Source of the DNA: Pirellulales bacterium
GTDB lineage: Bacteria; Planctomycetota; Planctomycetia; Pirellulales; PALSA-1355
Length of the DNA stretch: 64,000 bases
Reading direction: 5' to 3'
Assembly (NCBI GenBank): GCA_022844125.1
Contig: JALHMI010000007.1
Location: 132,896-196,895 of the forward strand
Below, in pieces: positions 42,182 to 60,641 of the stretch; within the stretch, counting starts at the first letter, position 1; each line of letters starts with the position of its first letter. The notes under the pieces were generated by a model. That model saw only the letters and a program-made list of their open reading frames with translations. It was not told the origin of the DNA and did no database searches. A program made the position numbers and the translations under genes.

Positions 42182-42312
42182 GTAGCAGGCACACGCCGTG
42201 TGCCGTCGCAGCAGCACCCCTAGGGTGAACACGAAGCCGAGCTTGTCGTGTCCAGTCGGTCTCGTTCGACTCTTTCTTACTTCGGTTACGGCATACGGCG
42301 TATGCCTACTAC
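42182..42312. repeat. REPIN-like unit 7, isolated diverged copy
   Basis: 131 bp, same layout as the units beside the RAYT at 58.7-60.2 kb: a left arm GTAGCAGGCACACGCCGTGT... and a right arm ...GGCATACGGCGTATGCCTACTAC. In the right arm the stem CACAC/GTGTG has become CATAC/GTATG, two changes that keep pairing. The inner sequence is largely different from the other six. It stands directly behind the 70-aa gene. Confidence 0.85.
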
Positions 42313-56989: not shown

Positions 56990-58291
56990 ATGATCGGACG
57001 AGCTCAAAACCGCCGTCGCGTGGTTGTTACCGGTGTGGGTTGCATCACACCGATGGGCACCGATGTCAAAACGATCTGGGAGGGCCTCAAGCAGGGCGCC
57101 TCGGGCGTCGGTTACACCTCGATCTTCGATGCCAGCCGCTTCCCGACCAAGATCTCGGCCGAAGTCCGCAACTGGGACGTCAGCGAAGTGGGCGAAGACC
57201 TGGGCGTCTGGGAGCTGCGCGGTCGGCACACCAAGTTCGCGGCCGGCGCGGCCAAGAAAGCCGTCGTCGATGCCGGCATCCTGGATGCCAAGCTCGATCC
57301 CACCCGCTTCGGCGTGTACTTGGGCAGCGGCGAAGGTCAGCAGGACTTCCAGTGCTTTGCCCGGATGATGGCGGCCGCCCTCAAGGGTGAAGCGTTCGAC
57401 CTCGCCCTGTTCACCAAGGCCGGCCTCGAATGGCTGCACCCGACCGTTGAACTCGAGCAAGAGCCCAACATGCCGGCCGGCCACCTGGCGGCGATGTTTG
57501 GCGCTCAGGGCCCGAACGCCAACTGCCTCACCGCGTGCGCGGCCAGCAGCCAGGCGATCGGCGAAGCCGTTGAGCTGATCCGCGCGGGCGACGTCGACGT
57601 GATGCTCTCCGGCGGCACGCACAGCATGATTCACCCCTTCGGTGTGACGGGCTTTAACCTGCTCACCGCCCTCTCGACGAACAACGACGATCCGCACGGT
57701 GCCTCGCGGCCGTTCGACAAGGATCGCGATGGCTTCGTGCTCGGCGAAGGCGCTTCGATGGTCGTGCTCGAAGAACTCGAACATGCCCGCAAGCGTGGCG
57801 CCACGATCTATGGCGAGATCACAGGCTACGGCTCGACGGCCGACGCTTACCGGATCACCGACACGCATCCCGAAGGCCGCGGCGCGACGCGCTGCATCCA
57901 ACTGGCGATGGAAGATGCCGCGGTCAACCCGACGGACATCCATTACATCAATGCCCACGGCACCAGCACCACGGTCAACGATCGGGTGGAATCGCTGGCC
58001 ATCAAGAAGGCCCTGGGCGAACATGCTTACAAGGTGCCTGTTTCGAGCACCAAGAGCATGATGGGGCATCTGATCGCGGCCGCCGGCGCGACGGAGCTGA
58101 TCGTGTGCCTGCTGGCGATTCGCGACGGCGTGCTGCCGCCGACGATCAACTACCACACGCCCGATCCCGAGTGCGACCTGGATTACATTCCAAACCAGGC
58201 GCGCGAGGCTCGCTGCGAACACGCCCTGACCAACAGCTTCGGCTTTGGCGGTCAGAACGTGGCGCTGATCGCGAGCGCCTTCAAGGGCTAA
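56990..58291 (+). CDS. Beta-ketoacyl-ACP synthase (FabF-like)
   Basis: 433 aa from the ATG at 56990, preceded by GAGGGAG at ~7 nt; a TTG 6 bp upstream is not needed. Thiolase fold: VVVTGVGCITPMGTD at the start, the catalytic Cys in NCLTACAASSQAIGEA near 177, the first active His in INAHGTSTTVND near 320, and the second in KSMMGHLIAAAGATE near 357. The C-terminus has NSFGFGGQNVALI as in FabF. It condenses malonyl-ACP with an acyl chain. End of the ACP-dehydratase-ketosynthase operon; the ~370-bp element begins 45 bp after its stop. Confidence 0.94.
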   Translation: MIGRAQNRRRVVVTGVGCITPMGTDVKTIWEGLKQGASGVGYTSIFDASRFPTKISAEVRNWDVSEVGEDLGVWELRGRHTKFAAGAAKKAVVDAGILDAKLDPTRFGVYLGSGEGQQDFQCFARMMAAALKGEAFDLALFTKAGLEWLHPTVELEQEPNMPAGHLAAMFGAQGPNANCLTACAASSQAIGEAVELIRAGDVDVMLSGGTHSMIHPFGVTGFNLLTALSTNNDDPHGASRPFDKDRDGFVLGEGASMVVLEELEHARKRGATIYGEITGYGSTADAYRITDTHPEGRGATRCIQLAMEDAAVNPTDIHYINAHGTSTTVNDRVESLAIKKALGEHAYKVPVSSTKSMMGHLIAAAGATELIVCLLAIRDGVLPPTINYHTPDPECDLDYIPNQAREARCEHALTNSFGFGGQNVALIASAFKG

Positions 58292-58335
58292 GCCTGAAAT
58301 CAGGCTCCGCTGTCGGGCGATCGCTGCTCGAATTT

Positions 58336-58704
58336 TCAAAGAGCTGACGCTGCGCGCGGGAAAAAGTCTTCCGGCTGTTTCTTGCGCTCGCATTTTTCGC
58401 GCGTGTGGACTCAGAAATGCGCGCAAATGATGTTTCGGGCGCACACACACGCCCCTCTGGCGACCCTGCGGGCTTTGCATCTTCTCCAGTTTCATGGTGG
58501 CGGTTGCAGGCGTCATGGTCATGGCTCGGTCTCTATCTAATGTCGTGACCTTACCCTATCTGAAATCCTGGCCACATTTCTAGAGGTGGTGGACACCTGG
58601 GCGGTGTGCGCGGTGCGCGCGCCATCGCGGCGAGAGCCAACGACTTACGCAGCGAGCCAGCCACACACGCGGGCAAGTGCGATTCGGAATGCGAATTTTT
58701 CAGA
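58336..58704 (-). repeat. ~370-bp dispersed element, copy 2
   Basis: Minus-strand counterpart of 42865-43240. Conserved blocks (minus strand): ATCTGAAAAATTCGCA ... GTGTCCACC ... GGCCAGGATTTCAGATA on the right side, and GAAACATCATTTGCGC, CACACGCGCGAAAAATG, GAGCGCAAGAAACAGCC and CAGCTCTTTGA on the left. Copy length 369 bp against 376 bp. It stands between the ketosynthase stop and the first REPIN unit (14 bp gap). No convincing coding frame. Confidence 0.75.
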
Positions 58705-58718
58705 TGCGGGGCCGGAAA

Positions 58719-58851
58719 GTAGCAGGCACACGCCGTGTGCCGTCGCTGCAGCAAAAAAGAGCTTGCTGTTGCTAATCGGCTCGCGCGTCGGGGCATTCTC
58801 GGTGCACCGTCTTGTCCGCTCCGGTTACAGCACACGGCGTGTGCTTACTAC
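58719..58851. repeat. REPIN unit 1 (subtype A)
   Basis: 133 bp, left hairpin GGCACAC-GCC-GTGTGCC and right hairpin GCACAC-GGC-GTGTGC. The inside (TGCAGCAAAAAAGAGCTTGC, then TGCTAATCGGCTCGCG) is nearly the same as in unit 4. Confidence 0.9.
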
Positions 58852-58984
58852 GTAGCAGGCACACGCCGTGTGCCGTCGCGGGATCGGAGCAGAGCCTACC
58901 ATCGTCAGTCGGCTCGCTCGTCAGGCCGATCTCGATGCATCGTCTTTTTCACTTCGGTTACAGCACACGGCGTGTGCTTACTAC
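58852..58984. repeat. REPIN unit 2 (subtype B), contains the RAYT 3' end
   Basis: 133 bp. Inside GGGATCGGAGCAGAGCCTAC is shared with unit 6. The stop codon (58905-58907) and last ~26 codons of the RAYT gene are encoded on its minus strand. Confidence 0.9.
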
Positions 58985-59621
58985 TTTCGAGCAGATACGA
59001 CCCTGGACGCAGGCCAGCCTTGGCAGGATTCGTGGCAATATAGTCTTGAAAGTATGCGAACTGCTCAGGCGAACGAACGAGATGGTCAAAGCTCTCGGAT
59101 TGCCAGAATCGGCCTTTGCGATTCAAGCGTCGATGAATTGCGGTCGCAGTGTAATGCTTCCAAGACCGGCACTGCGCTTCGAGCTGCGTGTCGCCGATGA
59201 GGCAGACCAGCAGATGGACATGGTTGGGCATGACGACAAAGTCGCCCAGGTGGTAGCGAGTGCCATTGCCATAGCGCAGATTCTCCGCCACGATGTGCGC
59301 GAGCTCAGGATTCTCCAGCGGGCACTCGCCCTCGCCATGGTCGAGATACTCCATGAATGAGCGCGTGAACGTCCTGTGATACTCCCGCTCCGCGTCGGGC
59401 ATCGCGCGCAGCGAGGCTTGCCGACCGTCGACACGCGGATCGAGTCCGTGCTGGTGTAGCCACGTTTCGCGGCGCGCGTGCCATGACCTCAGCAATGCCT
59501 GCGGCACGGAGTCGGCCGTGCGAAAGGTGACGAAGTATGTGACGCCCGGCTGATACCAATGCGGCAGGTTGCCGTGGCGAATGACATGCTCACTCTTGCG
59601 ATCGAAGAATTCGAAGGGCAT
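58905..59621 (-). CDS. REP-associated tyrosine transposase (RAYT, Y1/HUH family)
   Basis: 238 aa from MPFEFFDR at 59621; the longer open frame upstream runs through repeat unit 3 and is not used. The N-terminus (PHWYQPGVTYFVTFRTADSV) is the usual first strand of IS200/REP-type transposases. The HUH motif is MPNHVHLL (His 134, His 136), the catalytic tyrosine is probably Tyr 194 in DYIATNPAKAGL, and GRFWQSESFDHLVR near 170-183 is the conserved WQ region. It should nick and join single-stranded REP hairpins near GTAG. Residues ~213-238 (SSKHTPCAV... and a charged end) are encoded by REPIN unit 2. Only 20 bp lie between its start and unit 3. Confidence 0.92.
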   Translation of the reverse strand: MPFEFFDRKSEHVIRHGNLPHWYQPGVTYFVTFRTADSVPQALLRSWHARRETWLHQHGLDPRVDGRQASLRAMPDAEREYHRTFTRSFMEYLDHGEGECPLENPELAHIVAENLRYGNGTRYHLGDFVVMPNHVHLLVCLIGDTQLEAQCRSWKHYTATAIHRRLNRKGRFWQSESFDHLVRSPEQFAYFQDYIATNPAKAGLRPGSYLLESSKHTPCAVTEVKKTMHRDRPDERAD

Positions 59622-59641
59622 GAGTGGGATTGTACCTGAAA

Positions 59642-59793
59642 GTAGCAGGCACACGCCGTGTGCCGTCGCTGGACCAGCGATTTGGCGACGATCTCCGAAG
59701 AGCCGGCAGCAGTAAGTCGGCTGGCTGGTCAGCCCGTCCTCGATGCGGAGCTCTTCTCCACTTCGGTTACAGCACACGGCGTGTGCTTACTAC
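59642..59793. repeat. REPIN unit 3 (152 bp, longest)
   Basis: Same terminal hairpins; the inside is 19 bp longer and unlike the others in its left half (GACCAGCGATTTGGCGACG), but ends with the common TCGATGCGGAGCTCTTCT...CTTCGGTTACAG. It is the unit just upstream of the RAYT start, so it may hold the RAYT promoter. Confidence 0.9.
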
Positions 59794-59926
59794 GTAGCAG
59801 GCACACGCCGTGTGCCGTGGCTGCAGCAAAAAAGAGCTTGCTGTTGCTAATCGGCTCGCGCGTCGGGGCATTCTCGATGCACCGTCTTTTTAACTTCGGT
59901 TACAGCACACGGCGTGTGCTTACTAC
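59794..59926. repeat. REPIN unit 4 (subtype A)
   Basis: 133 bp; nearly identical to unit 1 over the whole length, differing in about a half-dozen positions (for example GTGCCGTGGC against GTGCCGTCGC, and the stretch before the right arm). Confidence 0.9.
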
Positions 59927-60059
59927 GTAGCAGGCACACGCCGTGTGCCGTCGCTGGATCGGCACAGAGCCCGCTGTCGTCAGTCGGTTCGCTCGTCGGG
60001 GCATTCTCGGTGCACGGTCTTCGCCGCCCCGGTTGCAGCACACGGCGTGTGCTTACTAC
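59927..60059. repeat. REPIN unit 5
   Basis: 133 bp; the ends are intact, the inside (GGATCGGCACAGAGCCCGCT, then TTCTCGGTGCACGGTCTTCG) looks like a mosaic of the A and B types. The right arm reads GTTGCAGCACACGGC, with one change outside the stem. Confidence 0.9.
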
Positions 60060-60070
60060 GTTGGCTGAAA

Positions 60071-60204
60071 GTAGCAGGCACACTCCGTGTGCCGTCGCGG
60101 GATCGGAGCAGAGCCTACCATCCTGAGTCGGCTCGCTCGTCAGGGCGATCTCGATGCGGCGCTCTTCTGCGCCCCAGTTACAGCACAAGGTGTAGGCTTA
60201 CTAC
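60071..60204. repeat. REPIN unit 6 (subtype B, decaying right arm)
   Basis: 134 bp; the left hairpin has a loop change (CACACTCCGTGTG). The right arm is GCACAAGGTGTAGGC, with mismatched stem bases, so this end probably no longer works. The inside is that of unit 2 (GGGATCGGAGCAGAGCCTAC). Confidence 0.88.
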
Positions 60205-60222
60205 CTTCGAGAAAGAGACGAA

Positions 60223-60472
60223 ATGCAAGTGCGCGCATGGAGTTTGCCGCGCCGCGTGCTGGGCATCGCCGCGTCGCCACCGCTACTGCGCGAATCGCCG
60301 GTGCCGCTGGGCCGGCTGTGGGTCGAGCATCTGAACGATTGCCGCGAGCATCCGCCGAGGCCGACCGTATGGGAGTGAAGCGTGGCAGAGCAAAGTTGCC
60401 AGGCAGCTTGGGCTGGAGCACACGCTGCGCGAACGCGGGCGTCCGCAAGTTGTCGTGGAGGAGCAACCGTAA
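60223..60472 (+). pseudogene. Possible decayed coding remnant beside the array
   Basis: An ATG frame reads 51 codons (QVRAWSLPRRVLGIAASPP ... WVEHLNDCREHPPRPTVWE) to a stop at ~60376. About 25 nt later another frame reads QLGLEHTLRERGRPQVVVEEQP to a stop at 60472, protein-like in composition. A frameshifted old gene would explain both, but I recognise no family and the case is weak. No other feature is seen in 60205-60549. Confidence 0.25.
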
Positions 60473-60549
60473 TCCTGAAGTCGAAAAAGACTCCCGTTCC
60501 TCTAAAATTCCTCCCCTTCACTCTCCGCGCCGGATCCTGGAGTTGAAGA

Positions 60550-60587
60550 GGGGAAATAGAAAGCCCCCTCGGATCTCGAAGGGGCTA
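60550..60587 (-). terminator. Intrinsic terminator of the PEP-CTERM-like gene
   Basis: On the minus strand AGCCCC (60586-60581) and GGGGCT (60567-60562) pair around a 13-nt loop and are followed by TTCTATTTCC. It lies 55 bp after the stop of the gene at 60642. Confidence 0.65.
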
Positions 60588-60641
60588 GGTGAATGGCGTG
60601 TGAAGCGAGTGGCATATGCGATCGTAGTAGATTGTGCGTCT

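Follow-up and report, generated by a model that had tools for sequence, protein, structure and literature searches.

The stretch of DNA analysed here, referred to as the window, comprises 64,000 nucleotides from a Pirellulales bacterium (GenBank assembly GCA_022844125.1, contig JALHMI010000007.1, positions 132,896 to 196,895 of the forward strand). At positions 58719–60204 it contains a gene for a REP-associated tyrosine transposase (RAYT; REP, repetitive extragenic palindrome), which is surrounded by six units of the REPIN type, i.e., REP hairpins in inverted pairs. The locus is probably a REPtron, consisting of one RAYT and the REPIN units on which it acts. The features are as follows (strand with respect to the window; a slash marks the joint between two units):

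58719–58851, plus strand: REPIN unit U1, 133 bp, from a GTAG hairpin to a hairpin ending in CTAC.
58852–58984, plus strand: REPIN unit U2, 133 bp, adjoining U1 as CTAC/GTAG; its right part codes for the C-terminal tail of the RAYT.
58905–59621, minus strand: RAYT (TnpAREP, HUH/Y1) gene, 238 codons and stop, ATG at 59621.
58905–58984, minus strand: REPIN-encoded C-terminal tail of the RAYT; residues 221–238 are predicted to be disordered.
59642–59793, plus strand: REPIN unit U3, 152 bp, 90–91% identical to both long units of the array on contig C9 of the same genome.
59794–59926, plus strand: REPIN unit U4, 133 bp, adjoining U3, 95% identical to U1.
59927–60059, plus strand: REPIN unit U5, 133 bp, adjoining U4.
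60060–60070, no strand: spacer between U5 and U6, 11 bp, GTTGGCTGAAA.
60071–60204, plus strand: REPIN unit U6, 134 bp, with a degenerate right hairpin, 87% identical to U2.

An earlier note on this DNA had described six units placed head to tail round a Y1/HUH gene, and they are present as placed, two units 3' of the minus-strand gene and four units 5' of it. The unit length of about 133 bp given there is correct for four units, U6 having 134 bp and U3 152 bp. Joints of the type CTAC/GTAG without spacer, which had been ascribed to all units, were found in three of four cases within the array, the exception being U5–U6. All six units start with GTAG and end with CTAC; the ends had been regarded as inverted copies, whereas the left hairpin reads GTAGCAGGCACACGCCGTGTGCC and the right hairpin, on its own strand, GTAGTAAGCACACGCCGTGTGCT. 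These are two distinct variants, and thus a unit has a direction. In U6 the start is CACTCC, not CACGCC, and the right hairpin has four mismatches. According to the folding, each hairpin consists of GTAG and two further unpaired nucleotides, followed by a stem of 7 bp and a loop of 3 nucleotides. Five of the six units (U3 was left out), folded as single-stranded DNA, gave z values of −2.8 to −5.1; U1, U2, U4 and U5 each formed one long hairpin, which U6 did not. The RAYT aside, the array sits between two genes. A search of positions 57900–60600 against Rfam with E up to 1 yielded eight matches, to animal microRNA models and one viral model, all far under the gathering scores. Derivation of the REPIN interiors in the window from the RAYT gene by deletion was considered and rejected: the matches were to the tail encoded by U2, to related units and to one piece of 17 nucleotides located where the compared flank overlaps U3.

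The start codon of the RAYT gene was chosen from the alignment with relatives. U2 codes for approximately the last 31 residues of the protein, for which translations of units at other sites of the same genome gave matches; the frame enters the adjoining REPIN and gains a partly disordered tail (HTPCAV...). At another locus, L074, tagged hairpins likewise overlap the 3' end of a RAYT match. With the Pfam model Y1_Tnp the protein scored 22.4 bits, just below the cut-off of 23, and with NCBIfam NF047646 (REP_Tyr_transpos, REP-associated tyrosine transposase, an equivalog) 72 bits (E 4.7e-20); the curated cut-off of the latter is 80, so the protein is outside the equivalog and a RAYT in the wide sense only. 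The sole sequence match in the PDB at E up to 0.001 was 4er8, the RAYT of Escherichia coli, with which the alignment showed 22% identity. In 42 aligned sequences H134, H136, W173, D179, H180 and R183 were invariant, Q174 and Y194 nearly so. W173, Q174, D179, H180 and R183 align with W94, Q95, E100, H101 and R104 of the E. coli protein, and Y194 with its catalytic Y115; the tyrosine motif is YIATNP. The five E. coli residues contact GTAG, and an exchange of E for D at position 100 is reported for subclasses 2.5 and 2.7, according to the text of Quentin et al. 2018 (PMC6006769). An AlphaFold model (pLDDT 85.6, pTM 0.79) had its best structural match in 4er8, the REP-bound E. coli RAYT (E 1e-5), followed by the transposases of ISDra2, IS200 and IS608. 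Judged by the aligned GTAG-contact residues and the best match of the predicted fold, the window protein is a RAYT. Its alignment covered 41 of 80 loci, and another alignment added seven loci from other genomes; L075 was excluded (stop after 53 codons), and seven rows were cut at the first stop, one of which, L140, ends ahead of the tyrosine.

The end pattern of the units had 29 exact matches in the whole genome, its reversed form none. When as many as three mismatches were allowed, the numbers rose to 56 and 2, the 56 corresponding to 55 hairpins, as one was counted on both strands. Since the matches far outnumber those of the reversed pattern, the hairpin ends are not due to chance. The search for more copies suggested in the earlier note was therefore positive, and its view of a RAYT with GTAG-tagged REPINs is borne out by paired copies in this genome and in relatives (see below). 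Arrays are located on contigs C1, C5, C7 (the window), C8 and C9, and REPIN pairs on C3, C7, C8, C11, C12 and C18, besides lone hairpins. The pair in the window is as follows:

42182–42312, plus strand: solitary second REPIN; the ends are of the same type, the interior is unrelated, and the right stem is a variant.

In its right stem a paired change is seen, from one C-G pair to T-A, which keeps the hairpin.

Between the hairpins of neighbouring inward pairs in the genome, 86–87 bp were found in 13 of 21 cases. Twelve neighbours face each other tip to tip, seven without spacer, three with 21 bp and one each with 8 bp and 11 bp. The interiors of the solitary units at C7 42182, on C11 and on C12 and of the short C8 unit are unrelated (41–66% identity over whole units, common ends included); the solitary units of C3 and C18b are of the main type. 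The identities of U3 with the two C9 units and of U1 with U4 indicate that arrays mix subfamilies, and in the arrays of C7 and C9 units of different subfamilies still abut exactly. The C8 array possesses 21-bp spacers which resemble flanking DNA; the C5 array has 8-bp spacers, and the two complete units compared are identical. Both have the appearance of simple tandem duplications. Ten consecutive N within the C5 array (L064) mark an assembly gap, and therefore array lengths and unit counts in the assembly may be inexact. At C8 (L067, 2432–3022) four units lie beside a sequence reading RRGFTLVELL, the prepilin motif, and it is this flank which the 21-bp spacers resemble by eye. A supposed RAYT remnant in the C1 array (match to residues 188–236) was discarded, the good part of the match being the repeat-encoded tail; in the 698 bp separating the C1 units, tblastn with RAYT residues 1–206 found nothing at E up to 10.

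By scanning bacterial genomes, 141 relatives were obtained, of which 80 were kept for analysis; most are labelled as planctomycetes or Verrucomicrobia, some as Poribacteria and a few otherwise. At these 80 loci the density of GTAG hairpins was 1.33 per kb up to a distance of 700 bp from the RAYT gene versus 0.21 per kb beyond 1.5 kb, and that of five control tags near the gene 0.08–0.36 per kb. At least one GTAG hairpin was present at 48 loci and none at 32. When, for 98 RAYT loci, the closest hairpins with the tag GTAG or GTGG were recorded up to a distance of 200 bp, the gene stood between two units in 40, had another two-sided arrangement in 25 and hairpins on one side in 11; 22 had none. 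Co-occurrence was examined in 57 genomes, i.e., the window's own, three of its family and the rest from its order, with RAYT called at E 1e-10 and a REP pattern which does not require pairing. The pattern was present in 12 of 17 RAYT-positive versus 6 of 40 RAYT-negative genomes (Fisher P 8e-5, kinship ignored and own genome included); the reversed pattern had 5 matches in 5 of the 57 genomes. Genome G018, a relative, has 432 matches. One metagenome-assembled genome contains three RAYT loci (L082, L083, L086), two of them 98.8% alike over 862 bp; the similarity between L082 and L083 continues upstream and was thus not taken as evidence of movement. The hairpins of L082 seem to be tagged GTTG instead of GTAG.

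Exact joints are not confined to the window's genome. Among 35 tip-to-tip neighbours within 400 bp at 95 RAYT loci, 13 had zero spacer, the loci among relatives being L084, L176, L182, L190 and L191 (L176 and L191 are from one genome). Five rows of the RAYT tree, that of the window included, have such joints and need five state changes, the same as shuffled labels; exact abutment is thus scattered, i.e., it recurs, or it is often lost or unseen. Outer GTAG hairpins are preceded by A at −3, −2 and −1 in 59, 50 and 44% of cases versus a background of 21% (348 flanks, from 74 of 102 scanned loci, several of G018); the strongest departure beyond −3 is C at −4 (39% versus 29%). Before counting, duplicate hairpin-flank pairs, flanks ending in CTAC or CCAC, and hairpins without a similar partner in the locus were dropped. 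In the window's genome A stands at −3, −2 and −1 in 29, 31 and 23 of 37 flanks, not all of which are independent. Exact joints and A-rich flanks would be consistent with cutting just 5' of GTAG and 3' of CTAC.

Of more interest than the window itself is G018. There, a RAYT gene with intact frame lies inside a 751-bp unit with the usual tips. Neighbouring units of 187–189 bp start with the same hairpin and leader, continue with the first codons of the gene (ATG CCG TTC GAG CTT TTC GA...), and then pass to its last codons and the right hairpin. With both gene ends present, these units are deletion products of the gene-bearing one, shortened in its interior; here, in one relative at least, REPINs stand to a RAYT-bearing unit as miniature inverted-repeat transposable elements do to an insertion sequence. 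A search with one 187-bp unit gave at least 95 matches in G018, a lower bound, since 40 of 293 first-look candidates were scored. Thirty matches, query included, span at least 160 of the 187 bases; four of them are from the home contig, the other 26 from 14 further contigs. Several near-full copies lie exactly end to end, and four copies from outside the home contig, when aligned, had kept both gene ends. A second RAYT copy of G018, frameshifted, on contig C115, is 86% identical from unit base 25 to the right tip and on into the next unit; beyond it, repeat units aside, the DNA is unlike the home locus. In G022 (L182) the gene is likewise located between unit tips, without deletion derivatives. 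G018 suggests that REPINs may be cut-down copies of a once self-moving gene, which fits the old, unproven idea that REPINs descend from a RAYT element resembling an insertion sequence.

For the window we consider it probable that one RAYT and the REPIN units form a REPtron in which tips are cut and joined and arrays are derived products. In sequence terms, inverted pairs of GTAG hairpins, exact abutment, conserved ends, A-rich flanks, and the HUH, tyrosine and GTAG-contact residues form the basis of this reading. The RAYT would bind the hairpins on single-stranded DNA, with GTAG serving as guide; GTAG is the exact complement of CTAC at the opposite tip. Cuts would be made 5' of GTAG and 3' of CTAC, and the tips would then be joined, giving a single-stranded circle or an end-to-end ligation with the joint CTAC/GTAG. 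Spacer-free arrays could result from copying round such a circle, or from units inserting beside the CTAC tip of one already in place; later, they would have been reshaped by homologous exchange and by duplication including flanks, e.g., to the arrays with 8-bp (C5) and 21-bp spacers (C8). Elements of the IS200/IS605 family are excised as single strands with a precise end-to-end joint, and this is the model for the proposed mechanism. More tentatively, and perhaps somewhat against the odds, the RAYT genes of planctomycetes could have been self-moving single-strand transposons until recently, with REPINs as their internal deletions, CTAC/GTAG as their joint and insertion after A-rich trinucleotides. 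They would then represent a still existing link from IS200/IS605 elements to domesticated RAYTs, which would explain the origin of REPINs.

Several observations weigh against a REPtron with arrays made by its RAYT. The sequences revealed neither movement nor an excision product nor an empty site, and for a REP family the window's genome has a low number of copies. Spacers are present in 5 of the 12 tip-to-tip neighbours there and in 22 of the 35 in relatives, and the tree test cannot tell repeated gain from loss. In the window, as at the 40 loci of this arrangement, the gene stands between units and thus is itself outside any movable unit; both gene ends inside units were found at 1 of 98 loci (L176 of G018; within 700 bp, strict hairpins), a comparison in which many matches were self-overlaps of flank included with the gene. 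At the 22 loci without a tagged hairpin within 200 bp the association is missing, as it is in five genomes with RAYT and without REP pattern; two of the twelve co-occurring genomes have one or two matches (G031 one; G037 two, not hairpin-like). Six genomes have the pattern without a close RAYT, including G034 (55 matches) and G053 (27); a second search of these six with the G018 protein gave weak matches only, in four of them (best E 0.0017). The REPs of G034 and G053 are possibly relics, or are served by another protein. The flank-like spacers of C8 and C5 are explicable by plain tandem duplication without RAYT, and this leads to the strongest rival, namely that host processes alone made the arrays, slippage or unequal exchange between hairpins having duplicated REPINs with the RAYT uninvolved in array growth. 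It agrees with units 87–96% alike in C8 and the identical pair in C5, with C18a, where by eye two units are fused via a common hairpin, and with a mean identity of 82% within arrays (28 pairs) versus 76% between them (69 pairs, C8 left out). However, exact zero-spacer joints occur at several places on the RAYT tree, and C7 and C9 join units of different subfamilies exactly; chance duplication should seldom break precisely at GTAG and CTAC, which weakens this explanation, and we regard it as rather unlikely.

The hairpins could also be kept as terminators or RNA elements, the RAYT being a domesticated host gene without remaining mobility function; RAYT genes are described as housekeeping-like in the text of PMC8266576, and the position of the window array between two genes would be in agreement. 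Against it stand the A-rich flanks, the exact joints and the fact that units are defined by their ends, in some cases round an unrelated interior; these features point to end-specific cutting and joining, and make this alternative improbable. Least probable, and in our view very unlikely, is an ordinary autonomous IS200/IS605 insertion sequence which has these hairpins as ends by happenstance. The earlier note had named such an element as the contrary outcome. This does not apply to the window, where the genome holds one full gene copy, between units rather than inside one, where the other units found contain no copy of the gene, and where GTAG-contact residues and best fold match mark the protein as RAYT; in G018 and G022, however, the gene is inside a unit with REP ends, and the second of the two related G018 copies shares the right edge of the first.

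A further repeat lies beside the array:

58368–58712, plus strand: LF repeat, a dispersed repeat directly left of the array, edges approximate, by eye.

LF (about 350 bp) ends next to U1 and has 29 matches in the window's genome, some of them weak; none were found in the 56 relatives searched. Of 15 REPIN loci, seven have their start no more than 40 bp from an LF 3' end (binomial P 5e-21), and of eight NF047646 matches, six are found 3' of LF at a distance of up to 2.2 kb (P 1.6e-9); both values presuppose independent copies, whereas the LF-REPIN pairs of C18 are duplicates. The eight NF047646 matches of the genome, three of them over the cut-off, comprise several Y1 types by eye. Two interpretations of LF were rejected: as structured RNA (17 pairs were predicted, none with compensatory changes in 27 copies), and as one end of an element carrying cargo (by eye, the frames in 15 flanks on the 3' side look mostly ordinary). 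LF might be a small protein gene; in a loose motif search, 16 of 28 copies had a short frame coding for a similar peptide, and the other 12 had none. Elsewhere, at L235 (genome G000, contig C14, 2592–3065), a Y1 gene with subclass 2.1-like motifs (NHVH, YIHLNP) is accompanied by perfect hairpins CACTGCTGG...CCAGCAGTG, one upstream and two downstream of it; for this subclass no REP-like sequences are reported in the text of PMC6006769.

Much of the system is already known, i.e., RAYTs, REPtrons, planctomycete GTAG repeats, inverted pairs with long spacers, tip-to-tip dimers 1–2 bp apart and tandem clusters, and the suggestion of the earlier note that a planctomycete system with such large units in an array may be undescribed is not supported. 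The text of Di Nocera et al. 2013 (PMC3733652) reports several families of GTAG repeats in R. baltica, REPtrons, inverted pairs with spacers of 20–100 bp, tandem reiteration and, in O. terrae, tip-to-tip pairs 1–2 bp apart. Tandem REPIN clusters beside RAYT genes are described in the text of Bertels and Rainey 2011 (PMC3116915), where descent of REPINs from the ends of IS200-like elements is proposed as a possibility. Nunvar et al. 2010 (PMC2817692) state in their text that 3' ends of rayt genes were captured between REPs and that typical signs of RAYT mobility were not found, and already draw a rolling-circle model; in that of PMC8266576, GTAG is a presumed guide and mobility of tnpAREP is without evidence. 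How RAYTs spread REPs and whether REPINs have an ancestor resembling an insertion sequence are open questions in the texts of PMC2817692, PMC3116915 and PMC8266576. Exact edges, a preferred flank and the gene-bearing unit of G018 with its derivatives provide defined substrates and predicted joints and empty sites, and the question should thus be directly testable. In the open-access papers searched, figures and supplements aside, we found no description of recurrent spacer-free arrays built from long units, of the A-rich flank or of REPINs as deletions of a RAYT unit.

Compared with IS200/IS605 elements such as IS608 and ISDra2, the window system has the same fold and catalytic residues; it differs by inverted hairpins of one kind at the ends, a gene outside the unit and a single full copy. 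The TIRtrons of PMC3733652 also contain a Y1 gene flanked by inverted repeats, but the repeats of the window are tagged with GTAG, and terminal inverted repeats (TIRs) are, in the text of that paper, mostly unrelated to GTAG repeats. With TnpAY1 subclasses 2.4 and 2.7 the protein shares the motifs NHVH and WQ and the GT[AG]G hairpins, found there in various phyla, whereas YIATNP is not exactly YIxNNP (2.4) or YI[LR][NQ]NP (2.7), as far as the published motifs go (PMC6006769, Table 1). The GTAG families of planctomycetes and Verrucomicrobia are alike in GTAG hairpins, dimers with GTAG outside and spacers of 20–100 bp, and REPtrons; zero-spacer arrays of long units, A-rich flanks and deletion derivatives are not in the text of PMC3733652, figures and supplements aside. 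Several traits are shared with the REPtrons of E. coli, Pseudomonas and Stenotrophomonas with their REPINs or bacterial interspersed mosaic elements: an HUH/Y1 protein with a single catalytic tyrosine and GTAG-contact residues, a gene flanked by GTAG hairpins, dispersed inverted pairs, and tandem clusters beside the gene, as given in the texts of PMC2817692 and PMC3116915. From these the window system is distinguished by units of about 133 bp, flank-free CTAC/GTAG joints in some arrays, a low copy number and a gene whose 3' end reads into a unit.

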